DNA from: Mesostigma viride
Lineage: Eukaryota > Streptophyta > Mesostigmatophyceae > Mesostigmatales > Mesostigmataceae
Direction: 5' to 3'
DNA length: 64,000 nucleotides
Assembly (NCBI GenBank): GCA_009746045.1
Contig: RPFO01000299.1
Span: 908,807-972,806, forward strand
How positions within the stretch are numbered: the first letter of the stretch is position 1; the number at the start of each line of letters is the position of its first letter. Positions 5,216-60,500 of this stretch are shown one piece after another. The notes beneath the pieces are model-generated. The model was not told the DNA's origin and did not search any database. It saw only the letters and a program-made list of their open reading frames with translations. Made by a program: the position numbers and the translations under genes.

Positions 5216-6743
5216 GCAGGGTAGGCCATGTATAACTGCCGTCAAAGTCAGGGGGGTCAAGACGCGCGTTTTCATTTTTGGTAGAATGTGCATTTTGAAT
5301 TATGTTATAAGACCTAGGCACCTACCACTTCAGGGATGATAAACAATTAGTTGCTGAACAGTTTGAGCCATTGGGGTCATCATTTGGGTGGGTATACCAG
5401 CAGTTACACCCAGTACAGCCCTTAGGGGTACCGTTGGTAAAAAGCAACCAAGGGGGTAGGGGTGGGCATACTACCTACTAATATGGCCACCAACCATGCC
5501 AAACAATACATTTCCCTTCCACAATGATGGTAAAACATAACTGCATCATCACACTGCCCTTACATGGCACCTATGTGCAGGTGCTACCTTGTCCATGCAC
5601 GTAGGTAACGTGGTACGGATACCCTACGCAAGGCATGCATTCTAGGAGGCAGCCACCAACAAACTAGTGATGTTGAGCCTATTTCAGCCTGCCCTAGCAA
5701 GGATAAACTAGGCCTAAGCTGCTATAGCTTGCCAGGTGATGGCCAGCACACCTGGTGGCACATGCTGTCAATGGGAAGCTTTTACTCACCAGTTACGTGC
5801 TTGATGATGCCACAGAGACCAGCCAACTGCCTCACACTCATGCAATATGTGTATGGGAAATGTATAACAAACATATATGGAGGTATTCAAACCCATACAG
5901 CCTCTAAAACTTATCACCATCACCCTGTGGCAGGTCAACTGACTGAGGGAAGCATCTAAGAAGGGTGTTTTAGAAAGGGGCCAGGCCAGGGTCAAGAAAG
6001 AGCATGAATAATGCAAAAAGAATGTGCTACACAAGCTAGAACGTACATATAAACGTCAAACATCGATAGGAAAACGATGCTTAAGCTTTACCAGGCATGG
6101 ATGGCGTTACCTTGGCCCAGGCGGTGGCCGCAAAATGGCGCATTTCGGCACACCAAAGTTGTGCAGCACGGTCGCTGGATTCGGCAATTTCTGGCCACCC
6201 TTGCACGTTAACGACTAATATGTATCATAAAAAGTACAAAGAAACCGATATATCCTTTAAAATACGCCGGAAATCTATTGCTGTCAACGTTTCTATCGTC
6301 CGGCCTGATCGCAGTTTTTTCCAGCAAGAACGCTGCCGACACCTATCAAATGGCATTCCCGCGAACCAAAAATTGGCCTGTATCATCTTTAGGACGTATA
6401 AAATCAATATCCTAAGTTTGGTCAGAAAATTCGAACGAAAACGTAAATGCCATGCGTGGGCGCAAGCCGCCATGGCCAGGTCGTCGTTTTCCGGAATGCA
6501 CGTTTTACGTGAAAAAGTACCCTGACCCCTTGTACTTTGACCGGCCAGAACACCTCTATAACTTTGTCAGAAGTATGCAAACCCATATACCATGCTGTGA
6601 AGAAACTTATAAACTTTCGATCTTCTCAGCTAAACTTTTCCTAATTCTCAATAGATTTCGCGGCATCTGGTCCCCCGAGAAGGGGCCGATGCATCGGCTG
6701 GAACTCGATTTTTGGCGGAAAATCGGCAGCAAGACCATTTAGG
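5216..6743. repeat. Right half of T2; family recurs at 15349-18140
   Basis: No gene is recognised here. The stretch from about 5588 to 6353 is nearly identical to 15349-15841 plus 17865-18140, the latter split by a LINE. A 76-codon plus-strand frame at 5729-5959 is preserved exactly in the other copy (15492-15722). Since the surrounding non-coding bases are equally conserved, this gives no evidence of coding function. The block ends at the right inverted repeat of T2. Confidence 0.6.
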
Positions 6744-6747
6744 GGTT

Positions 6748-7875
6748 AAGGAGTGCGCTTGGCGAGCTCGGCCTCCTCGCGGAGGTCAAGCGTCTGCCGC
6801 TGAAGCTGGGCTGCGACGGCGGAGGTGGTGGAGGTGGTGTGCTGCTTAAGCATATCCGCCCAGGTCGTAAGTGATGGGAGGAGCATCGCCGGCCAGGCCA
6901 GCAGGGGCTGGCTTGGCGGCAATGTCCTTCACCGCCTGGGCGGTGAGACCGGCGGTGTTCTGCAGGACCTCGATAGCGATTGCATTATCCTTGAGGCGCT
7001 GGTCGATGTCGCGGAGCTGGGCAGCCGATGCATGGAGTCGGTGGAGGCGGAGGGGGGGGGGGGGGGGGGCGAGGAGGGTGGCGGTGGCGGTGGGGATGGT
7101 GGGGAGCTCAGCAGCCAGCGTGCCTCCCATTGCCGCCACATCTGCGGCAAGGGGGGTCACGTGTTGCTCGAAAGCTTCCTTTTGGAGGGTGCAGATGGTG
7201 GCTTCGGTGGGGAAGGTGGGGGGGGGCGGTGGGGAAGCCCAGTCTGAGCGCGGTTTCGGAGCGTCCAAGGAGGGAGCAGAGGGCGAAGCGTTGGAGCTTG
7301 GGGCGATTCATGCGGTGAATGATTGGGAGAGCCTCGGCGGGGTCGACAAGCTGGCCATCACCAGGCCAGCGGCCGCGGTTGTGGGACGTGAGGTGCACGC
7401 ACAGGGCTAGAAGCGAGGCGTGCGTGCCGAAAAACACGTCGTCCATGAAGTACGATGGGCTGCGTTGCCAGTATAGCTGGAGGCGTTGATGTCGAAGGTC
7501 ATCTCTTCCCAGGGCGGCTCAGCAGAGCGACTGCGCTTAGGTTCAGGCGATGCCGATGGGGAGGCATGCCCGGGGGGCTGGGCGAGCACCAGTGCACGAC
7601 TTAGTAGTGTCACCGTTGCCGTCTGGGCCAGTGGGCGAAGCTGCAGCAGAAGCTGCAGGCGTATTTTCATTGCCGAGCGCAGGGCTCCGCCAGGCTGCGT
7701 TGCGTCGAGAGGCGTTTGCTCATCGTATATTGCGTAATAGCTTCGGAAAATTATATCAGCATGTGCGTCGTAGAAAGACGCATCGATTGTGATATTCACG
7801 GCTAAATTCGGTGCTCAAACGTGAAAGTTATGAGCTCCGCCGTCAGCCATGGCTACCTCGTGGCTCGTGGCTGAT
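6748..7875 (-). pseudogene. LINE copy 0: degenerate ORF1 and 5' end
   Basis: Minus-strand pieces match the ORF1 of copies 1 and 2, for example the central segment around QNTAGLTAQAVKDIAAKPAPAG (coded near 6900-6970). The frame is broken in several places and contains an 18-G run at 7052-7069. The 5' end near 7800-7860 matches copies 1 and 2 up to the block that reads CCATGGCTACCTCGTGGCTC on the plus strand. Copies share this start point, so it is probably the true element 5' end. Confidence 0.7.
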
Positions 7876-8275: not shown

Positions 8276-8448
8276 TAATTTTAACACTACAGCCTAGCTT
8301 AGAAAACTATGGCCAGCTATAACATGCAACATCGCCTGGCTAATTTTACCCCGACTAGGATGTGCCGAACTCTCAAACTCTGAAATTCTCAAAATTCTCA
8401 CTTTTAATAAACTATATACCATATACAGAGATATACACTGAAAATTTA
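8276..8448. other. Spacer with a dispersed motif, no gene
   Basis: No gene is seen. It contains GCTAATTTTACCCCGACTA (about 8340-8358). Its inverse or near-inverse recurs near 13753-13772 and 14692-14712, and a direct copy near 38133-38150. This is compatible with the flanks of a larger, uncharacterised element around the HUH gene. Confidence 0.4.
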
Positions 8449-8480
8449 TCAAAGAGACAACCCGCGCAGGCCAGAAATTT
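8449..8480 (-). repeat. S repeat end abutting the HUH gene stop codon
   Basis: The sequence TCAAAGAGACAAC...GCGCAGGCCAGAAAT matches the end of the dispersed S repeat. It begins directly at the stop codon of the HUH gene (TAA at 8479-8481). It is either an insertion that formed the present stop or the true 3' terminus of the HUH element, shared with small derivatives. Confidence 0.55.
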
Positions 8481-11400
8481 ATGTATGAAATGCTATGTCA
8501 GAGTCGGAGTCGGATGACAACATGATATCTGGGTCATCCTTATTCCGTTCGTCACGCAGGACTTTGTCAAGGAGTTGCTCATCTGTTAATTCGTCATCAT
8601 CACGAAGGGGCACCTCTTCGATGATGGCATCTATGTCAAAATAGCCAGACCCTGGTGGCTCTTCCGTGCGTGCTGCGCGTTCTTGGCGTTGAGCCGCGCG
8701 TGCATCAGGAAAAACTGCATCTACCTCATCTGAATCAAAGTACCGCTCACGCGGATTGAAAAGGGCCCTTTCGAGCCCACGTGCTATAGCTGACAACGAA
8801 TGTTCACCAAGTCTAGGTTCAACCATGATCTCGAATGCAGCTTGTACACGAGGATAATCAAGACCCCTACCCATGAGAAACCTAGCATCTAGAGAGTATC
8901 GCCCCGTCTTGAACATGTGGGCCATTGTTTTAATCAGGTTTGGACGCAAGCTAATACTATTGTGGTGCTTAAACCAGTACACAGCAGCACGTTCGAGTAA
9001 ATTGTAGGCGGTCAAGCAGCACCGTCCCTTGAGAGTGGGGGACCCATGAAGTAAATATTCTATCCGGCCTTCTTCTTTCTCGTCCTCATCAATGCCGTGG
9101 CAATACAAGATCTGAAACCCTTCTTGCTCTTCCGACTTCAGCAAATAGCCTATCATCCCAGAATAATTCAACTTGTGGCTAGGCTTAACTTGGCGTGCCA
9201 CGAGGCTTGGCTTGGTTTTGTCATGTTTCCCTTTTTCATCTATCGGTTCTCCCCACCCAAGTTCCTTCTTGAGCTTCAGTTTCACAGCATGGGCTGATGT
9301 AGCCTCAACATCGATTAGCATGTGGACGTGCTTGTGCATTTCTAGTATTCCTTCTTCCACAATTGACATGCCCTTGCCGCCATTGGCTACATGGAAGGCT
9401 TCAATCTTGCCAAGCTCATCGTCATTAAGATCACGAGCCCCCCCTGAAATGGAGATGTGGAGTGTCATATTCTTTAGCGGCGTGCGCCCACGTGCGTGCT
9501 TGGGTTGACGCAATGGAATGAACTCGTCAGTTTCTTGAGCTTCTTCGTGCTGAGTTGCGGTGTTGTGTTCCTCATTGAGTGCAGCGTCCTCACGCTCTTG
9601 TAGATGTCGTCTTGCTTCTCTGTCACATACATTGCACATGCCAAGGAAAAATATATCGCACATTTTTAGCAAGAAGGGTGGTTAGTATTGAATAAAAGAC
9701 TTAAAAAATATTGGCGTATAATTTGGCAAGGAATTCCAATAAAAAAAATTACACAAGGAAGAGTGGCACCTTACCGCCCACGCTTTATCTTGCACGTCAC
9801 GTGATTGCTGAGACCACGTTGGCTCTTGGCCACGAAGGGCGGCTCGCAACAGTTGCACCTCAAATTCTCATTCTTACTTGCCCCAGCTTCACCATCGCTG
9901 TCCTCGTCATCATCCGAAACACTAGCTTCATCATCTATGAATTTTACTTTTTTTGCCCGGCGTGGAGGGGGATCCTCTTCGTCAACCTCATCCCCTTCCT
10001 CCTCCTCTTCCACTTCCTCTTCCCCTTCATCCTCCTCTCCTGGTTCGTCTTCCGATTCCTCTTCATCTTCCCCACCGATGTTGACCCTGTCGATATTATC
10101 TTCTTGCTCATCCTCGGAGGCATCGTCTAAAATGGCATGCCGCCGGCGCCGCCGTCGCCTTGCTGCAGCGTTTAAGTCAGGCACTACGTTGTCCTCCAGT
10201 CTCTCCGGGTCCAGGTGTGGTGGATCCAGTGAGTCCCGTTGCTGGGGATGAACAAGTAGGTCCGGCGTGGCTGTCGGTTGCTGGGCTGGCGTGGTCGTCA
10301 TGGACAGGGTCGTCATCTGGAGACGGCTCAAATGCAGGCGTTTTCTCATTGCATTCGTCAAAATTGAGGGCTCGTTTGGTCCCCTTGCCAGGCCAGGACG
10401 ACTTGCCAACGGTAAAAACGTTTTTTTCTTGGCCATGTTGTTTTGTAGACGTTTGTGTTGATGATGATGGGGTTACAGATGACCCACCCCCAGCAAGCTT
10501 GCCAGCTGCAGACAAAACGGAATTCAATAATTCATCCTCCTCCGCCTGGGACCCCGTCAGATCCACGGTATCCACCAAAGCCCCTTTATTGATTGCGTTG
10601 GAGAGCAAGGGCCCTATTGTCTCAAGTGTTGACAGCACCTCATTTGTTGCATGTTTGACCACCCCATCCCAAAGTTGTTCCTTTTTGCCCAAGGCGACTT
10701 TCAGCCGCTCTAACGTCTTTAGTTGCGGCTCCACCGTTGTCTCGTACGCCTTTCGCACTTTCTCCTCGCAGAGCTTTTCTTCTCTTTCCTTAAGTTCATG
10801 ATACCTTGCCTTAGCAGCATTGACATTCTTGGTCTGTATCTGTACGCCTTCGTTGGCACGGTCGAGGTTAATCGCCCTGTCTCTGATGGCGTTTGTTAAA
10901 TCAACTCGCTGCTTGTTTACTTTTCCAACGAGGTCCTTGAAGAGGTCTTGTTGAATTGAATTGAATTGAATTGTAACATAACTCCGTTGGGAGTATATGT
11001 AGCACATAGCCCTTGAGAGGGGGCATATGGCCTATCATACATCCTAAGCTACTTCCTGCAAGGGTGGGGATGTAAAGGACCCTTGCTCTAGGTGCACCAG
11101 GGCACGTGCATCCCCATGATCTTCAAGCTATGCCCAGCGAAGGGGGAGCCTGTCATGGGGGGGAAGATCAGCATAGCTATACAAAGAAGCTAGGGCATGG
11201 CGTCTCAGCAGAGAGCTACTCCCTGCATGGGCACAGCATAACTAAATAAAGCTCAGTAGGCATCATCTGGAGTGTGGCTCATCATAGGCACACATGTACA
11301 TGATTAAATAAAGCGCGTGGCTTAGCTGGGATAGGGCCTCTAGGAGGCGTACATGTACATGGCCACGGTCTATCTATTCTACACTACTACTGCTGTATTC

Positions 11401-12979
11401 CCCTAAGCTGGGGCGTCTGGAGTCGCTGGGGCCGCGGGGGTCGCCTGCCAGGGCTTGTGGCCGACGTAGATGGCCGCCCCCTTCCAGTACACCGGCTGCC
11501 CCGCCTTGGTCTGCCGGAGCTGTCCAGAGGTAGGTCGGCCATAGCTCCCGTCGCCGTTGTTGCTGCGCCAGGGTCAAGTCGTCGTCAAGGGTGAAGAGAG
11601 TCTTCTCGAGCCGCTTGCGGCGTCTGAGAAAAGAAATCTTGTCCGCCGGGGTCTTAAAGGTTAGAAGGAGCGGGGGCGGCCCTGCCTTACCCCGCGCGCG
11701 GGGAAGGCGGTGGGCGGCCAGCTCGATCTCACCAGTAAGGCCCATGCGATCAAGGATTTCTCTCTCAAAAGCACGCGCAAGCTTCTCGGAATTCTCACCT
11801 TCCTCCATCTTGAGATTCTTGACAATGACGTTGAGGCTGCGCTTGGCGAGCTCGGCCTCCTCGCGGAGGTCAAGCGTCTGCCGTTGAAGCTGGGCTGCGA
11901 CGGCGGAGGTGGTGGAGGTGGTGTGTTGCTTAAGCATGTCCGCCCAGGTGGTGATGGGAGGAGCATCGCCGCGGTCAGGCCAGCCGGGGCTGGCGTGGCG
12001 GCAATGTCCTTCACTGCCTGGGCGGTGAGGCCTGCGGTGTTCTGCAGGACCTCGATAGCGATGGCATTGTTCTTAAGACGCTGGTCGATGTCGAGGAGCT
12101 GGGCTTTGATGTCGGCGGTGGAGGTGGAGGTGGCAGTGGAGGTGGAGGCGAGGAGGGTGGAGGTGGAGGTGACGGTGGTGGAAATGTGAGGGAGCTCAGT
12201 AGCCAGCGTGCCGCCCATTGCCGCCACATCTGCGGCAAGGGGGGTCACGTGCTGCTGAAAGGCTTCCGTGAGGATGGAGCGGTATGTGGCTGCGGAGATG
12301 GTGGGGGCCAAGATCTCGCCGTCAGACTTCGTCAGCAGGGAACAAAGAATCATGTGCTGAAGCTCGGGCCGGGGGTACAAGCCCGTCAGCAGCAGTTCGC
12401 GGCTCTGTTGAAAATTAGAGCCGTCAAATTCCAGTAGGCGACGGATGCTGTGAAAGTAGAGGCACAGCTCAAGAAGCGAGGCGTAGTCCCCGAAGAAAAT
12501 GCAGTGCATAGCAGCGACCGGAGAAATGTTGTTGAACCAGTCGTGATCGTCGGCATGGAAGGAGTGGTACTTGAAACGCGGTTCGCGTGGAAAGGATGAG
12601 CGGCTGCGTTTAGGGTCTGGCGAGGCCGATGGCGAGGCAGGAAGCCCGGGAGGGTGCTGGGCGGCCACCAGTGCGCGACTAGTGTCACCACTGCCTTCCG
12701 GCCCTGATGGCGAAGCTGCAGCCGGAGCTGCAGACGTATTTTCATTGCCGAGCGCAGCCGTCAGGCTGCGTTGCGTCGATGGGCGTTTGCTCATCGTATA
12801 TTGCGTAATAGCGTCGGAAAATTATATCAGCATGTGCGTCTTAGAGAGACGAAGCGATTGTGATATTCACGACTAAATTCGGTGCTCAAACGTGAAAGTT
12901 ATGAGCGCCGCCGTCAGCCATGGCTACCTCGTGACATTTCCATCAGGTCTTGTTGCACCAGGTTATTCATCGCCGCCAT
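8479..12979 (-). CDS. Rep-like HUH endonuclease of a replitron-like transposon, interrupted by a LINE
   Basis: The gene is read on the minus strand in parts. The start ATG at 12979 (MAAMNNLVQQ) has an in-frame upstream TGA. A LINE interruption (10954-12944) follows, then a charged coiled-coil-like segment from about 10953, a basic (RRRRRRRH) and very acidic stretch at about 9900-10190, and a C2HC zinc finger (CNCC...NHVTC) at 9792-9857. A GTAAGG donor just after this joins in phase to an acceptor near 9620 (TACTAAC branch-like signal). The last exon has TLHISISGG (motif I-like), KHVHMLID at 9330 (HUH motif) and GYLLK at about 9147 (the Yxx K nucleophile motif of single-tyrosine Rep proteins). 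The C-terminus is acidic. There is no helicase domain, so it is not a Helitron. From memory, the closest described class is the replitrons of green algae. The frame change near 10250 could be a 64-bp intron with a poor donor or an indel. As it stands the copy is broken by the LINE. Confidence 0.7.
9618..9772 (-). other. Predicted spliceosomal intron in the HUH gene
   Basis: On the minus strand the zinc-finger exon ends ...AAGCGTGGGCG|GTAAGG. The intron contains TACTAACC, a good branch-point match, and ends in TGTGACAG before AGAAGCAAGACG. Splicing joins the two frames in phase (…KIKRGR-EARRHLQ…), which supports the zinc finger and the HUH domain belonging to one protein. Confidence 0.7.
10954..12944 (-). 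mobile_element. ORF1-only LINE copy 1, inserted in the HUH gene
   Basis: The target duplication AGGTCTTGTTG lies at 10943-10953 and 12945-12955. The minus-strand order is 5' end near 12934, ORF1 from 12794, 3' UTR, hairpin ACTCCCAACGGAGT (10981-10994) and tail of ATTCA units (10950s). The element is about 2 kb and has no reverse transcriptase. Its 5' end coincides with that of copies 0 and 2, so it is probably full length and non-autonomous rather than a deletion. Extra bases (about 11) lie between the element 5' end and the right target duplication. Confidence 0.9.
11374..12794 (-). pseudogene. LINE ORF1-like protein (copy 1), frameshifted
   Basis: The protein begins MSKRPSTQRSLTAALG. It has a low-complexity N-terminus, a middle helical region (LLDIDQRLKNNAIAIEVLQ) and a C-terminal half from about 11960 in another frame: SLNVIVKNLKMEEGENSE, GEIELAAHRLPRARG, PPLLLTFKTPADKISFLRRR and LTLAQQQRRRELWPTY. 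The order hydrophobic strand, 'AHRL' and 'LLLTF' followed by basic residues and a RRRELWP end resembles the RRM plus C-terminal domain of L1-type ORF1 proteins, which bind the element's RNA. One frameshift near 11965 separates the halves; copy 2 is continuous at that point. Confidence 0.65.
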
Positions 12980-13540
12980 GGCCCCGGCGTCTTCTTTTCT
13001 TTTTGTTTCCCTTCATTCACACACCTATTTTCGCGTGTATCCTGTCAATCACATGAATCGTGACGCGTGGCCGCTCCTTCTGCCTTTGGTATTCGTGCCC
13101 CGTGAGTAGCCAGCCAATCACACACGACGTAAGTTTCGTAACCGCAATCAGTATTCAGTTAGCCGACAGATGGATCCGTTTGTTGGTGCTGGTAGATGAT
13201 CACTGTTCCGGCCGTCGGCTGCTTCCAGATACCTGGTGCCCATGTGCACCACCGTTATATCCCTGCGACGCGTTACGTTCCAACGTGTCGGCCATTTCCA
13301 TGAAATGATATCTCCGTAACCGCTATTCTATAGATTCCAAGGTGTCAAATCCTCCACCTGGACCTTACTGGGCCTGACGCCCGGAAGTGCCGAAGTAAAC
13401 GCCATCTACGCTCCAACTACGGTCCAATAGATATTCGGTTTGAAACTGACCACGGGGTTTTCGTGGAATGCGCAATCCTCAGATTTTCGGCAGCGATTCC
13501 GAGTAGCCGTAACTAAAGCATGCCCCTAATTGGTACGTAC
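12980..13540. other. Upstream region of the HUH gene, no gene seen
   Basis: No open frame with recognisable content is present. This is the natural promoter side of the minus-strand HUH gene. No clear TATA box could be assigned. A short stretch TTGAATTGAATTGGAACATAA near 13683-13703 resembles the tail of the LINEs and may be a minute 5'-truncated copy. Confidence 0.4.
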
Positions 13541-14800
13541 CCCCCCGTTGTAACACCGTCCCCCCCCCCCCTAATAGAGTCATGCCTCTTATTTCATTTG
13601 AAGGTACCTCAGCCCCCGCCCTGAACGTCAGATCCAAAATCCGCTTGCCAGACCGGGAACTCCGTCCAATACCGTAGTGCATTGAATTGAATTGGAACAT
13701 AAATCCTTCTTTCCGTCACCCTCGATATGTTTTAGTACAATACTACAAATTCACGCCAGTCGGGGTAAAATTGGCTCTTTTTTAGCAAATTTAGCAAATT
13801 AGCAAATTAGCGGAGGCCGGGGGGCGAGATTAATTAAGAGGTACCTTGAAATTAAATAAGACGCATGCCTCTATCGAGATATATGTTTGGAGGCGAGTTT
13901 CTATTGGCGTTAATTTGTAGTATTGTACGACAACTGTCAAGGGTGACGGCATGTACTGAAATCGCGGATACTTTCTAGATCGATTGCGCATTCGACGGTT
14001 AAAAGGCAGAGCTGCGGTTGAAAGTACTGTACGGGGGGGGGACGGTGTTACAACGGGGGGGGGACGCATTTATGGGGGGGGGGACGGTGTTACAACGGGG
14101 GGACGGTGTTACAACGGGGGGACGGTGTTACAACGGGAGGGCGAGATTAATTAAGAGGTACCTTGAAATTAAATAAGACGCATGCCTCTATCGAGATATA
14201 TGTTTGCAGGCGAGTTTCTATTGGCGTAAATTTGCAGTATTGTACGACAACTGTCAAGGGTGACGGCATGTACTGAAATCGCGGAAGTGTCGCGGAGACG
14301 TTTCTACTTTCTAGATCGATTGCGCATTCGACGGTTAAGAGGCAGAGGTGCGGTCGACTGGCAGTACTGTACGACGGTGTTGGACGGAATTTCCGGTTAG
14401 CGATGCGGTCTAAAGCTTTGCATGTCACGTTGTCGGATCTTAGCCCTTGCGTCGCGCTGTGCTGTGGCGAACTTATTCTCCGCCGTCAGATTGCACCGTC
14501 GATGAGCGTCGATGCTCGTCGATGAACCCAACGCAAGCCATGTGACGAAAACAAGTAAAAATTGGTGCGGCGGCCTCTACGGCTGAGTTTGGTCAAGTAC
14601 GCAACTTGTAGCCCGGCGACTCCACGTAGAGCAGTCCGCAGGTAGTCCGCCGGCGTTAATTTGTTAATTTTGTTAATTTGTAAACTGGGGACAACCTAGT
14701 CGGGGTGAAATTGGCGAGACAATAGAAATTCACGTCCGAACATATATCTCGATAGAGTCATGCCTCTTATTTCATTTGAAGGTACCTCTTAACTCGCGTT
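13536..14800. repeat. G-rich tandem array with inverted and direct repeats
   Basis: A module of about 210 bp occurs twice in direct orientation (13822-14030 and 14139-14370). Both contain GGTACCTTGAAATTAAATAA. Near-inverse copies of its start lie at 13570-13606 and 14738-14795. Between the direct copies is a tandem array of a roughly 19-bp unit, a G run followed by ACGGTGTTACAAC (14030-14136), whose inverse appears near 13540-13570 with a C run. The layout suggests a degenerate foldback or terminal-inverted-repeat element. The G runs could form G-quadruplexes. No coding sequence is supported. Confidence 0.6.
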
Positions 14801-15841: not shown

Positions 15842-17853
15842 TGAATTGAATTGAATTGTAACATAACTCCGTTGGGAGTATATGTAGCACATAGCCCTTG
15901 AGAGGGGGCATATGGCCTATCATACATCCTAAGCTACTTCCTGCAAGGGTGGGGATGTAAAGGACCCTTGCTCTAGGTGCACCAGGGCACTTGCATCCCC
16001 ATGATCTTCAAGCTATGCCCAGCGAAGGGGGAGCCTGTCATGGGGGGGAAGATCAGCATAGCTATACAAAAAGGCTAGGGCATGGCGTCTCAGCAGAGAG
16101 TTACTCCCTGCATGGGCACAACAGAGCTAAATAAAGCTAGGCATCATCTGGAGTGTGGCACATCATAGGCACACATGTACATGATTAAATAAAGCGTGTG
16201 GCTTAGCTAGGATAGTGCCTCTAGGAGGCGTACATGTACATGGCCACGGTCTATCTATTCTACACTACTACTGCTGTATTCCCCTAAGCTGGGGCGTCTG
16301 GAGTCGTTGGGGCCGCGGGGGTCGCCTGCCAGGGCTTGTGGCCGACGTAGATGGTCGCCCCCTTCCAGTACACCGGCTGCCCCGCCTTGGTCTGCCGGAG
16401 CTGGAGGTAGGTGGGCCATAGCTCCCGTCGCCGTTGTTGCTGCGCCAGGGTCAAGTCGTCGTCAAGGGTGAAGAGAGTCTTCTCGAGCCGCTTGCGGCGT
16501 CGGAGAAAAGAAATCTTGTCCGCCGGGGTCTTAAAGGTGAGAAGGAGCGGGGGCGGCCCTGCCTTACCCCGCGCGCGGGAAGGCGGTGGGCGACCAGGTC
16601 GATCTCACCAGTAAGGCCCATGCGACTAAGAATTTCTCTCTCAAACGCACGTGCAAGCTTCTCGGAATTCTCACCTTCCTCCATGTCGAGGTTCTTGACA
16701 ATGACGTTAAGGCTGCGCTTGGCAAGCTCGGCCTCCTCGCGGAGGTCAAGCGTCTGCCGCTGGAGCTGGGCTGCGACGGCGGAGGTGGTGGAGGTGGTGT
16801 GCTGCTTAAGCATGTCCGCCCAGGTCGTGATGGGAGGAGCATCGCCGGCCAGGCCAGCAGAGGCTGGCTTGGCGGCAATGTCCTTCACCGCCTGGGCGGT
16901 GAGGCCCGCGGTGTTCTGCAGGACCTCGATAGCGATGGCATTATCCTTAAGACGTTGGTCAATGTCGCGGAGCTGGGCGGTGATGGAGTCGGTGGAGGCG
17001 GAGGGGGGGGGGTGGAGGCGAGGAGGGTGGCGGTGGCGGTGGGGATGGTGGGGAGCTCAGCAGCCAGCGTGCGACCCACAGCTGCCACATCTGCAGCTAG
17101 GGGCGTCACGTGCTGTGAGATGGTTTCTTGGAGGTGGAGGAGGAAGGTGGATTCGGTCAAGGGGGAGGGGGTCCAGAGGTCCGTGACAGAGCGGTCAAGG
17201 ATGGAAAAGAGGGCGGCGAGCTGAAGACGGGGGCGAGACCAGCGGGCCAGGTTCTCAGGTCGGTGAGTAAACCGGCCGTCAGGTCCAGTGCGGAGGCGGT
17301 AATGGCTGTGAAGGCGCTGGCACAGGTCGAAAATGGAGGCGTATGACCCATAAAACACGAGCTCCAGTATCTTGATGGGTGGCATGTCGAAAAAGCCGGG
17401 TCTGGCATCGTCGAAGGTGGAAAATAACCCGTCAACGTCAAAGTCGCGCTCAGACCAGCTTGGTTCGGTTGGGCGGCTGCGTTTTGGCTCGGGCGAGGCT
17501 GAGGGCGAGGCAGGAAGCCCGGGAGGGTGCTGGGCGACAACCAGTGCGCGACTAGGGTCACCACCGCCTTCCGGCCCTGATGGCGAAGCTGCAGCCGGAG
17601 CTGCAGACGTATTTTCATTGCCGAGCGCAGCCGTCAGGCTGCGTTGCGTCGATGGGCGTTTGCTCATCGTATATTGCGTAATAGCGTCGGAAAATTATAT
17701 CAGCATGTGCGTCGTAGAAAGACGCGTCGATTGTGATATTCACGGCTAAATTCGGTGCTCAAACGTGAAAGTTATGAGCTCCGCCGTCAGCCATGGCTAC
17801 CTCGTGGCTCGTGGCTCGTGGCTCGTGGCTCGTGGCTCGTGGCTCGTCGATCG
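15842..17853 (-). mobile_element. ORF1-only LINE copy 2
   Basis: The 11-bp target duplication AGGAAAACGAT lies at 15831-15841 and 17854-17864, and the uninterrupted site is visible at about 6069-6079. The minus-strand order is a 5' end made of tandem TGGCTCG-type heptamers (read GTGGCTC on the plus strand, 17805-17850), ORF1, 3' UTR, hairpin (15866-15879) and ATTCA-unit tail. Length is about 2.0 kb, equal to copy 1, and again no ORF2. Confidence 0.9.
16451..17667 (-). pseudogene. LINE ORF1-like protein (copy 2), frameshifted once
   Basis: It begins MSKRPSTQRSLTAALG at 17667 and runs to about 16885. The second half follows in another frame (16888-16451) with DAPPITTWADMLKQH, SLNVIVKNLDMEEGENSE, GEIDLVAHRLP and the arginine-rich end. 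Compared with copy 1 the N-terminal third is quite different in residues 75-160, while the start and the C-terminal RNA-binding-like part are conserved. The N-terminal part therefore evolves fast or recombines. Confidence 0.65.
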
Positions 17854-38056: not shown

Positions 38057-39060
38057 ACAACGCAAAAAATTGCGTTATGTAATAACCCGAGTTAATTAAT
38101 CTCGGCCCCCGCCCTCTGAGAATTGAGAACTCTGGAGCCAATTTTACCCCGACTAACATGCAACATCTTGGTCTCATGCCCCCAGCACAACCTCATGTCT
38201 ACAGTCCTATTGAAATTACTACTTCGAAAAACCTGGGATGCAAATTTTCACCCAAAAAAATGGAACAATTTCAGTGGATGTGTTTTCATGAATTCGAGAC
38301 TTTTGATGTAGAAATTATTTTGTCATGATTATACTATGCTGAAATGAATCAAACAAAAGATCAGTAACGCCCACATAAGCCAATCGAAGCTACAATTGGT
38401 ACCCGTGGCAGATCCAAAACTGGTGGAGAACCAATGTATAAAGACAACTGAAAATCTGGTGCCCACTCAAAGACTGTACTAGAAAACCCATCAACAAACA
38501 TCAGGGGAACACTGGCTTTCTATATACGAAGCAATTTTTCTTTCGTAAATCAACAATACATAAATCAAACCAAGCTACAGATCAACTAGATGCATAGCAT
38601 CCAAATCTGCTGGAACACCTCTCGGGCATTCTTGCAACAGAGCCGTGGAACCTCAACAGAGGTCACCACAAGCTTGTTATTGAAGAAAAACCAAGGGCGA
38701 TTCTTGGACAATCGAGCTTAACTTTAGCAACTTGATAGAAGGATGAACTTCTTATCCTGTACATGAAAAGGGGGGCGGACAAGCAACAACCAACATGCAA
38801 ACTATATTTAGCGATTTGAGGATGGTGCCTGCAGGTGCAATCAGATTATCTAAACAACTACAGTAAAACTGACCGATGCAACTGCAGACAGACACCACCA
38901 AACAACATTAGCTCAGGACTAAAAACCATCCCCAAGACTCTCAACCATCACCAAGACGAAAGACTTTTCCTCCCCTTTCTCATTCATGGTCACAGAAATT
39001 AACTTGCGCTAAAATCAAACTGTCACAAACCGTCAAACACCATACTTCACATCCCTGTTT
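38057..39060. other. Intergenic region downstream of the ATP/ADP carrier gene
   Basis: No gene is recognised. It starts with the palindrome AACGCAAAAAATTGCGTT, then a motif GCCAATTTTACCCCGACTAA shared with about 8340 and the 13.7-14.7 kb array. The remainder is AT-richer sequence that probably includes the 3' UTR of the transporter gene. Confidence 0.4.
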
Positions 39061-45520: not shown

Positions 45521-46703
45521 TTAGAGTGTAAGGTTGATGCAAACCAAGCTAATCAACACAACAACACCTCCTAAACTGTCCTCCCCGGCATGGATGACAA
45601 ACTGGGACTATGGAGGGCAAGGAACCAAGTAGGAACATGGTATATATAGCTTGCATGCAGTCATGCATGTCAACCATGGTTGGCTCAGCACATTGTAGTC
45701 TTGTCACATCATCATAACAAAGGAAAGCTCAGACAACCATTGGTGCCAGCTATCTACATGCAGTCACACAAATGCAATATCTCCAACATCATCTTCACTA
45801 TAACACTTCCATCCCTGCACGATAAAATGCAAAGAAACCATTGGCGGCCCTTCAGCGCATGAGCGCTGTGATGCCGCTGCGGCCTGCGAAGAGAGGGTGC
45901 GTCACTAGAGCTCAAACAACAAGAAGCGTCCATACGCACAACATCCTTGCCAGAACACGTTTTATGAAATTCCCTATACCTTCCCGAAGAGCTATAGGCT
46001 GCGACTGAAGCGGCCCTGATCACGACATCAACGAAAACAATATAAAGCTGCCAGGTATTCGACAACACAACGGCAAGCGACGGCGAGCTAGCTGGCAGAA
46101 ACTGCCCCAAAAGAACGCAAAAAACCTCGAACGATGAGCTCAGAGAAGAAAGCGCTGATAGCAGATAACATTCACGACAAATCTGTACCTTGCCCTCGTA
46201 AATCCCTCGCCCAGGCGTGCAACAACAGCCGTTCTTCCATGGACAGGTCAGACACGCACTGCGCAGGTCTGAACAATTACTTACCGATAATGGCCGAAAA
46301 TCTGGCGAAAAGCACCAGATCGGTTTAGAGTTCGATGCAACCGATATTAATGCCTGCTTCACGGTCAGAACGACGCGATTTTACAGCCGCTATCATGAAT
46401 TCTGTTTCATTCCGCGCGACCAAAAACTTCAGATTACCCCCCATGCCGATGGCATAAAAAAACAACAGCGATATTGTAAACCAGCTTATTTCCACCACAA
46501 ACTAACATCATAAACTCATCGCCTTTTAGATTCGAGTAAAATTTTTGCATTTCGCCTGCCCTAGTGTGGTAGTTTCGCCTGAACGCAGTCGCCATGGCCA
46601 CTTCCGCAAGGGGTGCTCGCACCGTGCACGTGAAATTTGTGACCTTCGGTTCCGGCGCGAATTTTTTGGCGCCAAAAAATTCGGGGGTGTCCCGTCCCCT
46701 TAA

Positions 46704-46856
46704 TTAACTTTGGCAATATGGAATGCAACTATTAATTAATTAATAAATTAATTAAAACACGTGCCCTCGTAATCTGGAATGCAACTATCAATCAATTAAT
46801 TAATTAACTTTGGCAATCTGGAATGCAACTATTAATTAATTAATTAATTAATTAAA
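46704..46856. repeat. Short tandem repeats of a TGGAATGCAACTAT/TTAA unit
   Basis: The unit 'TGGAATGCAACTAT' plus (TTAA)n, with or without CACGTGCCCTCGT, occurs three times here. It occurs once more at about 43242-43271 across transposon T3. It was therefore present before T3 inserted and was then partly amplified. Confidence 0.6.
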
Positions 46857-52383: not shown

Positions 52384-52480
52384 TATCAAAGAGACAACCA
52401 GCGCAGGCCAGAAATCGGGAGAATCCGGACCATGGTAGCTCGAGCCTGCCGTTATCTTTTCCGCGTTTTCGAGTCGTTCA
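52384..52480 (-). repeat. S repeat, longest copy
   Basis: The inverse of 52081-52158, extended by AACGGCAG and GATAACG..CGCGGAAAAG-type sequence to TGAACGACTCG. With its partner it encloses about 225 bp. Confidence 0.65.
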
Positions 52481-57500: not shown

Positions 57501-60500
57501 ATATCATCATTATCATGTCTTATTTCCACGCGACTGCTGGGTTTTGATACGGTGGCTTTTCAAAAGGCTCAGAAAGTAATGCACTAATGCTATAATTTAA
57601 TCATTTTAATAGACGCACGTTGTTGTGGTACCAACACCACATGAGTCATGACGCCCCTTTTCCCTTCTGTTATCAATGAGACAACGTCTATATTTGCAAG
57701 CTATTCCCCAAACTAGCAGGCCTAGGCCAGCCCCCCCCCAGAAAAGCAATCATCATGTTTGACGCTACGCCGGGGCAAAAAGTCAAACGTTGACGCTACG
57801 CCGGGGCAAAAAGTCAACATTTTGACGGAAGGGTCAGGGGCAAAAGTCAACATTTTGACGTTTCCTAAAAACCTCTACTAGAAACACTGCCTGTCTGGGT
57901 GGAGGCCACATTAAAACGGATCCTCACGAACCTGTGTGTGCCAGCAGCAGGAGATGCACAGGTGCATGCCTAACGCAAAGTATCATCAGCTGATTTGAGG
58001 CATCTCCATAGTGGACGGCATCACGCTTGCCTCGCTGGTAAGGACGCAGGGCGGGGCATGGTGCCGCTGGAACACGGGAGGTAGGCAGCGAGCGGGGGCG
58101 GGCATCATAAAGCACGTGTACTAAAGGGAGTCGTGCAACCAGCGGCTGCACCCTGGGCTACAAACCGAGGCGTGCTGTGGAACAGCAAGCCTAGCTCCAC
58201 TGATACATGCAATATAGAAGCTAGACTCACCAAGCACCCCCCCATTGGTATCCAGCGCGATGCCCGACCTCACGATGAGCACACTGACCCCCTCAGGGAC
58301 ACTGCGTGCCTGCTGCTCCCAGGCTTGGCACACCTGGTGGGGTGTCATGAGGCATGGGGCAAGATGACATGCAAGCGTCAGGAGGGCAGGCAGCGGACCC
58401 TCCACGAGTAACGGATGTGATGTGGATGAGGACGAGAGCACGGTTTAGGTATGTAAGGTATAGGCGGGGAATGCCAGATAGGGAAGGGCCCAGCATTGCA
58501 TAATGCAAATTCTGAATGGGGCAAGGACCGGTGAAATTAGGGTGCATCAAGAAATGGTATTGCCCAAGCAACTGGTAATGGCACGAAGGGAGGCATGGCG
58601 ATAGAAATGTAGCAGTACTACCAGGTGCTGGCATCTGCGAGAAAAGCCTGCCAGCTGCTGTTGCGTGTCAAGGCTGCTTTTGTTTCCAAGATAAACCTTC
58701 AAGCAGATATTCAAACAGACAGTAACATGATGTTTTATGGAATACGCGGGCTTTTGTTTCCCGCCGAACACTTGCAAGTGATGTCCTCCGGATTATTGCT
58801 TTTGCACCATGTGCAGTTCTTGGACGTTTGGAAACATGGCATGGCTAACGTAATGACTGACTAGCTAGACCTTTTCAGTGGTTTTCCATGTGCAGGTATT
58901 TCCTCGTAAATGATGGGAGAGCAATCGCAGCAATGGTGCTCACCACTAGACACTCCCGGCCAGTTAGGCTCGAAACACACGCCCTGATCAAGCAAGCTGT
59001 TTCCGGCCCCACCGTCTAGGTCATTTAGTCGCTCTACACGTAAGCCAGCCATAATTTCTATGCACAAGGCTACACATTTCCATCTCCATTCATATTCATC
59101 ATCCTGAACGACTCGAAAACGCGGAAAAGATAACGGCAGGCTCGAGCTACAATTGTCCGGATTCTTGTATTCCTGGCCTACGCTGGCTGTCCCCATGGTA
59201 TATGTGTCTTTACTTCACTTTCATGAGCATGCGGAAATGCCAGCACTCAAGCACCTCACATCACTGCGCTTATCTAATGGACAAAAGGCATCATAGACCA
59301 AGTAATCGCTGCACTCATCTCATGGACCAGGGCATCATAGACCAAGGAATCGCGGCGCTCATCTCATGGACTAAGATATCATAGACCAAGGAATCGCTGC
59401 ACTCATCTCATGGACCAAGGTTCCTCGCCTCCAAGTCCAAGGTACCTGGGCGAGGTAGTCGGAACCGGGCTTGCTCGCCTCCTCAAAGGTGGCCGTGTCA
59501 CTGCATCCATAGTAGCCCACCGCGGACGCCGACACAAGCACTGAGGGGCGGGACTCGGCGGGGCACTCGCTGATGGCGCGCGCGACCTGAGGCACCCGAG
59601 TGGAAGAAATGTAGCATGATTTTGTATGATGAGTGCATGTTGGTGTTGCATGATGTGTGCGAGGGGGAATGGGTAACAGTATAAATTATTGGAGGAGCCT
59701 AAGGGCACACCAGGTCTTGCACCGCAGCACGCGAGCCAGGAGCTCTGGTTTGAATAGATAGGACCATGGCTTGCAATGGGACGTTGAAACATGATGTTGT
59801 TGAGCCTGGAGCGGTGGCAATATCCACCAACCGCAACTACACCATAGGCATGCACACTTGCAAACCCAGAACCCTCGCAGCATTGCACGGCTCCAGCCAA
59901 TGACCCACTTGGAACAAGCGACATGGACTGTGAAACGAGCATTCTATACACGGCTGCCTCATGGCCCCAAGACAGCAGAGATTGTCTTTGACGATTTTCC
60001 CTGGGGTGCATGCGCGAGGACAAAATTGTTGGAATGCATGCACAGGTCGTCATCTCAGCACACAGGCCCAGCAATACTACATCCACTAAGTTTAAGGATC
60101 GGAAGTCGAGCTGGCCAAGTGCCTGCAGCATGTGACCGCATGGAACTACCCTTTCGGCAAACCATCGTGATCGGCACAGGCATGGAAAGCATGTACAGGT
60201 GTGTGCGAGGCAGAAGGTCCCACGGAGCCACATGTGGCACGGCAGCACGTACCCTCTCGGTGGCATTCACTCGGCTGGTCATGATGGATGCCTTCACCTG
60301 GCACACAGAAGGTGCAAGGACAAGGCAGGATGGCAGTGGGCATGGGGCCAAGTTAGCAGATGATACTTGCAGGGTGTGGCGCGTCGCTAGCAGGCGTTCC
60401 GCTGATACCCCTGCCAAGGGACCCAAGGCGGGCGATGGCGGGACTAGCGTAGCAGATGGCAGCAGGTAGCATCCACGTGCCACAGTGCAAGAGTTCCTGT

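Follow-up and report, generated by a model that had tools for sequence, protein, structure and literature searches.

What kind of mobile element carries the HUH endonuclease gene on the minus strand of a 64,000-nucleotide (nt) stretch of Mesostigma viride DNA, and does this gene act alone? The stretch, hereafter the window, spans positions 908,807 to 972,806 of contig RPFO01000299.1. A sequence-only reading had placed one continuous gene at 8479 to 12979 within a replitron-like transposon. Comparison with related loci across 439.9 Mb of the M. viride genome indicates that the element is probably a two-protein Replitron, in which a helical protein encoded by open reading frame 1 (ORF1) precedes a one-intron HUH endonuclease (ORF2), and of which the window holds a disabled copy. 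The match to the Replitron_HUH profile, the invariant HxH and YxxK motifs, the high copy number, the direct terminal repeats, a precise insertion, and head-to-tail arrays together identify the element as a Replitron; the suggested transposon class therefore stands. Loci in the genome are denoted L0xx and fall into subfamilies A and B and a distant family C.

The HUH Endonuclease Gene

A minus-strand frame is open from 9681 to 8479 and contains HKHVHML followed, about 60 residues on, by GYLLK, the two motifs from which the sequence-only reading had recognized an HUH protein. The intron it had placed ahead of them is also found, with GT-AG borders, a length of 155 base pairs (bp), phase 2 (9620 to 9774, minus strand), and the same junction as in the M. 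viride gene model P0002. Exon 1 (9775 to 10436, minus strand) begins with MAKKK, contains an acidic stretch and a CNCC...H motif, and is 97% identical to P0002. Exon 2 with the stop codon (8479 to 9619, minus strand) encodes the endonuclease, with H318-V-H320 and Y379xxK382 in the numbering of the 600-amino-acid product. Spliced ORF2 is open throughout its 600 codons. Among 5000 Markov-1 simulations, openness over the same length in any frame arose by chance 0 times for ORF1, 2 times for ORF2 exon 1, and 0 times for exon 2. The zinc finger, previously called C2HC, is upheld in part: CxCC and H are retained, whereas the fourth ligand varies, being C in P0002 and A in P0003, with none seen on inspection of family C sequences.

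In a Pfam scan, the window ORF2 protein matches Replitron_HUH (PF21859) with 27.6 bits and an E value of 4.1e-6, slightly under the cut-off of 28.5 bits. Other ORF2 proteins also fall slightly short (P0002, 26.6; P0003, 26.0; L023, 28.1 bits), and the family C relative L041, 36% identical and from the same genome, exceeds the cut-off with 28.9 bits. Genome searches connect the window protein to family C with E values as low as ~1e-63. The catalytic residues are invariant among homologues, HxH and YxxK being unchanged in four of four aligned sequences (H315, H317, Y376, and K379 in P0002 numbering). A single YxxK tyrosine motif lies downstream of HxH. Pfam scans of the ORF1 and ORF2 proteins, with matches considered to E 1–5, found no helicase domain and, in particular, no superfamily 3 helicase downstream of the HUH domain, in agreement with the earlier view that the protein is neither a Helitron nor an ordinary geminivirus-like Rep.

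Protein relatives of ORF2 are few. A search of 5.8 billion proteins gave two, both M. viride gene models: P0002, with 95% identity across the entire query, and P0003, with 64% across 62%. An alignment-based search returned only these two again (7999 best candidates scored). No relative was found among solved structures, and PHROGs gave nothing better than E 0.13. Two peptide patterns selected 47 stretches among IMG/VR viral contigs and 39 among bacterial and archaeal genomes, with 0 confirmed as relatives in either set, and none was confirmed in plasmid records. An integrated replication gene of a circular Rep-encoding single-stranded (CRESS) DNA virus or a plasmid is scarcely credible, even though such Reps resemble ORF2 in combining HxH with YxxK: the Pfam scans matched neither helicase nor capsid, relatives were unconfirmed in IMG/VR with these patterns and in plasmid records, and the element has defined ends, many copies, and empty-site paralogues, as described below.

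A Separate Upstream Gene

The frame upstream of ORF2 is not a continuation of it. It lies on the same strand in another frame (+1 apart) and has its own stop at 10177 to 10179, so that a single gene reaching 12979 is contradicted by the shift of frame, the stop, the insertion at 10954 to 12944, and the separate gene models P0004 and P0005. In the window, ORF1 consists of a 5′ piece before the insertion (12945 to 12979, minus strand), which starts MAAMNNLV, and a remainder with the stop (10177 to 10953, minus strand), which overlaps ORF2 exon 1 at 10436 to 10177 in the other frame. The product of about 260 amino acids matches P0004 (256 amino acids, 82%) and P0005 (204 amino acids, 77%), both of which begin similarly with MAAM(K/N)NLVQQDL. 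The tail of P0005 is a third-frame reading of DNA matching the beginning of ORF2; ORF1 and ORF2 are therefore adjacent at the P0005 locus too.

The helices once read as a coiled-coil N-terminus of the endonuclease belong to ORF1, and the coil itself is not borne out. Hydrophobic periodicity in ORF1 is marked at 3.6 residues (reached by 5 of 5000 shuffles, four periods tested) and unremarkable at the heptad period of 3.5 (981 of 5000), which points to long amphipathic helices and not to a clear heptad coil. Pfam matches of ORF1 are weak and below cut-off; GrpE, with an E value of 0.06, is an example. The segments VDLTGSQAEEDE and IDLTSASNDGEDE, from ORF1 of two families (window 10953 to 10180; L045), are reminiscent of SUMO-interacting motifs. 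Given its helical periodicity, ORF1 may be a helical accessory protein, possibly an oligomerising or DNA-holding partner.

Linkage and Selection

The two frames mostly occur together. The genome contains at least 111 ORF2 matches and 103 ORF1 matches, fragments of one element being taken separately in the linkage counts. An ORF2 match lies within 3 kilobases (kb) downstream on the same strand at 79 of the 103 ORF1 matches, and ORF1 lies upstream of ORF2 at 76 of the 111 ORF2 matches; ORF2 is nearby on the opposite strand at 4 of the 103. At 11 of 21 loci parsed (L021 to L026, L028, L029, L033, L038, and L039), the end of ORF1 and the beginning of ORF2 share 233 or 251 nt, always in the +1 frame. 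Several of these 11 are near-identical, so about three lineages are represented. The other 10 gave no such overlap: the script mis-paired L027, the window copy is split, and the rest are truncated or rearranged.

Family C has the same layout, with MAKTK and an overlap of 83 or 92 nt, in three of five loci (L042, L044, and L045), among which ORF1 is open from its start only in L045; the ORF2 frame is interrupted at that place in L041 and L043. The ORF1 sequences of L045 and subfamily A are 26% identical over 177 columns, with hhalign P values of 8e-4 (global) and 0.0084 (local) at low probability and a BLASTP E of 0.17. This sequence comparison hints at common descent without establishing it.

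Selection acts on both genes. In six copy pairs, the ratio of nonsynonymous to synonymous substitution rates (dN/dS) is 0.07–0.17 for ORF1 ahead of the overlap. Within the overlap it is 0.7–1.3 in the ORF1 frame and 0.47–0.75 in the ORF2 frame, and past the overlap it is 0.15–0.50 for ORF2 exon 1. ORF2 exon 2 gives 0.05–0.14 in four valid pairs, two L038 pairs having been dropped because they offered only 26 codons. Comparisons among family C copies were uninformative. The low values ahead of the overlap and values near 1 within it indicate that selection retains ORF1, while its overlapping tail seems free.

These data bear on whether the Replitron is ORF2 alone, with ORF1 derived from an older neighbouring element or a captured host gene. 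Such an origin would accommodate the 35 of 111 ORF2 matches that have no upstream ORF1 match, but many of these are fragments or belong to family C, whose ORF1 is too divergent for the search used. The linkage at most places, the common ends that enclose both frames in L021, L022, and L023, the purifying selection on ORF1, and the identical layout in family C make it very improbable.

A second alternative is a single fusion protein, in which alternative splicing or a frameshift connects ORF1 to ORF2. In its favour, constraint in the ORF1 frame does stop at about the ORF2 start, and the overlap is more constrained as ORF2 than as ORF1 in four of the six pairs. Simple leaky scanning as the route to the ORF2 start is also disfavoured by the 7–9 ATGs between the two starts. 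However, P0002, P0003, P0004, and P0005 are all predicted as separate ORF1 or ORF2 proteins, and MAK(K/T)K behind an ATG in good context is common to subfamilies A and B and family C. A candidate splice acceptor that subfamily A has immediately ahead of ORF2 is not conserved in subfamily B and was rejected. A fusion is accordingly unlikely, and two separate proteins are preferred. Within the overlap, a slippery heptamer for −1 frameshifting was also considered and set aside; judged by eye, it would enter the third frame and soon meet a stop there.

Element Ends and the Window Copy

Full-length elements are about 3.4 kb long, and their ends are fixed by the further copies in the genome, in L021, L022, and L023. 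In subfamily B, AGTCGGGGTAAAATTGGC stands at the start and CCTAGTCAGTAAAAAA at the end of a copy of about 3.44 kb; subfamily A starts like B and terminates with CCTAGT(CG or AT)GGGTAAAA. The ends carry short direct repeats: AGTCGGGGTAAA(A or G) versus AGTCGGGGTAAAA in L021, GGGTAAAA at each end in L022, and AGTC plus GTAAAA at each end in L023. No terminal inverted repeats were found in the comparison of element ends. One 3′ end sequence has 95 exact occurrences in the genome, with 0 for its reversed control. Copies L025, L026, L028, and L029 are 99.4–99.97% identical to L023 and have different flanks. Near-identical copies at many sites fit copy-and-paste movement.

The whole window copy belongs to subfamily A and extends on the minus strand from its 5′ end at 13622 to its 3′ end at 8344, where the terminal direct repeat CCTAGTCGGGGTAAAA lies (8344 to 8359, minus strand). 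Its blocks are 99.4% (13622 to 12945) and 98.7% (10953 to 8342) identical to L021, and its 5′ end is about 47 bp shorter. Between the blocks, ORF1 is broken by an insertion of about 2 kb (10954 to 12944, minus strand) with a TTCAA-type tail and CAACAAGACCT at both edges (10943 to 10953 and 12945 to 12955). The insertion appears retroelement-like, and parts of it recur elsewhere in the window. Because it is flanked by CAACAAGACCT in this way, the gene is interrupted before reaching 12979. The window copy is thus a disabled member of a multi-copy, recently active M. viride Replitron family of which intact relatives exist.

Relatives of the insertion occur at 6754 to 7862 and 16885 to 17694 with proline- and threonine-rich frames, and a Pfam scan of two pieces gave no match. 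A repeat of the form CAAAGAGACAACC(A/C)GCGCAGGCCAG is present at 8450 to 8474, 2335 to 2354, and 52387 to 52406; the copy at 2335 sits between two ATGATGTTCACACTAT, like an insertion. The 25-bp repeat at 8450 to 8474 was considered as an insertion private to the window copy and rejected, a similar stretch being present in L022.

A shorter, apparently non-autonomous Replitron relative lies nearby on the plus strand (13758 to 14701), running from AGTCGGGGTAAAATTGG to GGGGACAACCTAGTC. The inverted AGTCGGGG near 13758, a candidate terminal inverted repeat of the window copy, was discarded as part of this second element. Around it, from 13540 to 14800, direct and inverted repeats that include GGTGTTACAAC units are intertwined, and at 14698, a possible fused 3′–5′ junction, a 3′ end runs directly into AGTCGGGGTGAAATTGG. 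Elsewhere in the window are a 5′-end fragment of subfamily A type (38090 to 38154, minus strand; AGTCGGGGTAAAATTGGCTCCAGAGTTCTC) and two short arrays of tandem repeats, each with a period of 44 bp (46700 to 46851 and 59260 to 59420).

Insertion Sites and Arrays

Where does the element insert? Both flanks of L026 match contiguous diverged repeats, that is, empty-site paralogues, one in the window and one in L028. The flank identities are 92.5% and 87.7% to the window paralogue (6278 to 6749, plus strand; insertion point between 6677 and 6678) and 90.4% and 79.7% to that in L028. In the L026 insertion nothing was lost, at most one base was repeated, and three bases are extra. Apparent target duplications were seen in L036 (10–12 bp), L033 (5 bp), and L029 (3–6 bp), among 12 copies. 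In 5 of 18 copies the motif AGTC occurs no more than 12 bases past the 3′ end, where chance would give 2.5%; in two of these five cases, a neighbouring Replitron begins with that AGTC. The 18 were taken from 20 copies, L024 and L037 being dropped for having no recognised 3′ end.

Copies also stand head to tail. At C1801 two full copies are spaced by 3442 bp, and at C1106 the spacing between copies is 2825–2826 bp. At C258, five 3′ ends are exactly 675 bp apart; in the part that was read, four junctions are identical and two compared units agree at 674 of 675 bases. In this array (L046, G000:C258:103300-105700), a short Replitron relative is repeated in near-identical units of 675 bp, with which the window relative at 13758 to 14701 shares sequence by eye. 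At C224, too, 3′ ends are closely spaced, at distances of 836 and 758 bp.

Relation to Known HUH Transposons

Helitrons, which are HUH transposons of eukaryotes, lack terminal inverted repeats and can build tandem arrays; their Rep has two tyrosines and a fused helicase. The M. viride element differs from them in having one YxxK and no helicase match, and from CRESS-DNA virus Rep in having no match to a superfamily 3 helicase. IS91/ISCR and IS200/IS605 are bacterial HUH transposons whose insertions lie next to a short sequence that does not vary, a site preference similar to the AGTC bias found here; unlike those bacterial elements, the present one has no bacterial or archaeal relative confirmed with the two peptide patterns. 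Replitrons reportedly have one catalytic tyrosine, in a YxxK after HxH, and are said to carry a potential oligomerisation domain; the ORF2 structural model is poor in the part after the HUH domain. The HUH domain, single tyrosine, lack of a detected helicase, short direct repeats, absence of terminal inverted repeats, size of 3.4 kb, and green-lineage host are all shared with Replitrons.

PMC10741241 describes Replitrons of the green lineage as 0.9–4 kb long, with direct terminal repeats of 5–11 bp, no terminal inverted repeats, and target duplications of 2–8 bp; PMC13231165 and PMC13253262 name them as well. Compared with that description in PMC10741241, the M. viride element is set apart by an overlapping ORF1 under selection, by target duplications that appear irregular, and by frequent head-to-tail arrays. 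The Replitron class is already known and represented in Pfam, and the conserved two-ORF form looks new: no description of a conserved second Replitron ORF was found in the literature searched, with the founding Replitron paper outside the comparison.

Possible Mechanism and Its Weight

From family membership and the anatomy of the element we infer the most likely mode of movement, including its chemistry, cleavage at AGTC, copy-and-paste transposition, the role of ORF1, and the way in which ORF2 is initiated. ORF2 would nick AGTC at the element ends by means of Y379 and remain covalently attached, while host enzymes would copy and displace one strand. The displaced strand would then be joined to a target, often next to another AGTC, and overrunning the 3′ AGTC would produce head-to-tail arrays. 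ORF1 probably assists, through oligomerisation or by holding on to DNA or ORF2. The full proposal, of a two-protein lineage in which ORF1 is a needed partner, AGTC marks both ends and target, and rolling-circle copying overruns into arrays, is tentative, its chances being a little short of even.

Several observations weigh against the two-protein Replitron or this account of its movement. The window protein is 0.9 bit below the Pfam cut-off. The predicted structure of ORF2 is poor, with a mean predicted local distance difference test (pLDDT) score of 52, and it matched ACT/ferredoxin-like folds, with no Rep among the 50 structural matches listed. The partner is missing from its expected place at 24 of the 103 ORF1 matches as well as at the 35 ORF2 matches, and ORF2 lies upstream instead of downstream at 11 of the 103. 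The ORF1 tail shows no constraint in the overlap. Target duplications are doubtful, short, or none in the remaining copies of the 12. The AGTC bias was tested only after it had been spotted, and its P values therefore do not test it fairly. Once a dimer exists, unequal crossing-over can also enlarge arrays.

The Replitron class is young, and little is known about its mechanism. The copies, ends, empty sites, arrays, and accessory ORF of M. viride make the cutting site and rolling-circle copying testable, and the system also allows one to ask whether some Replitrons require two proteins.

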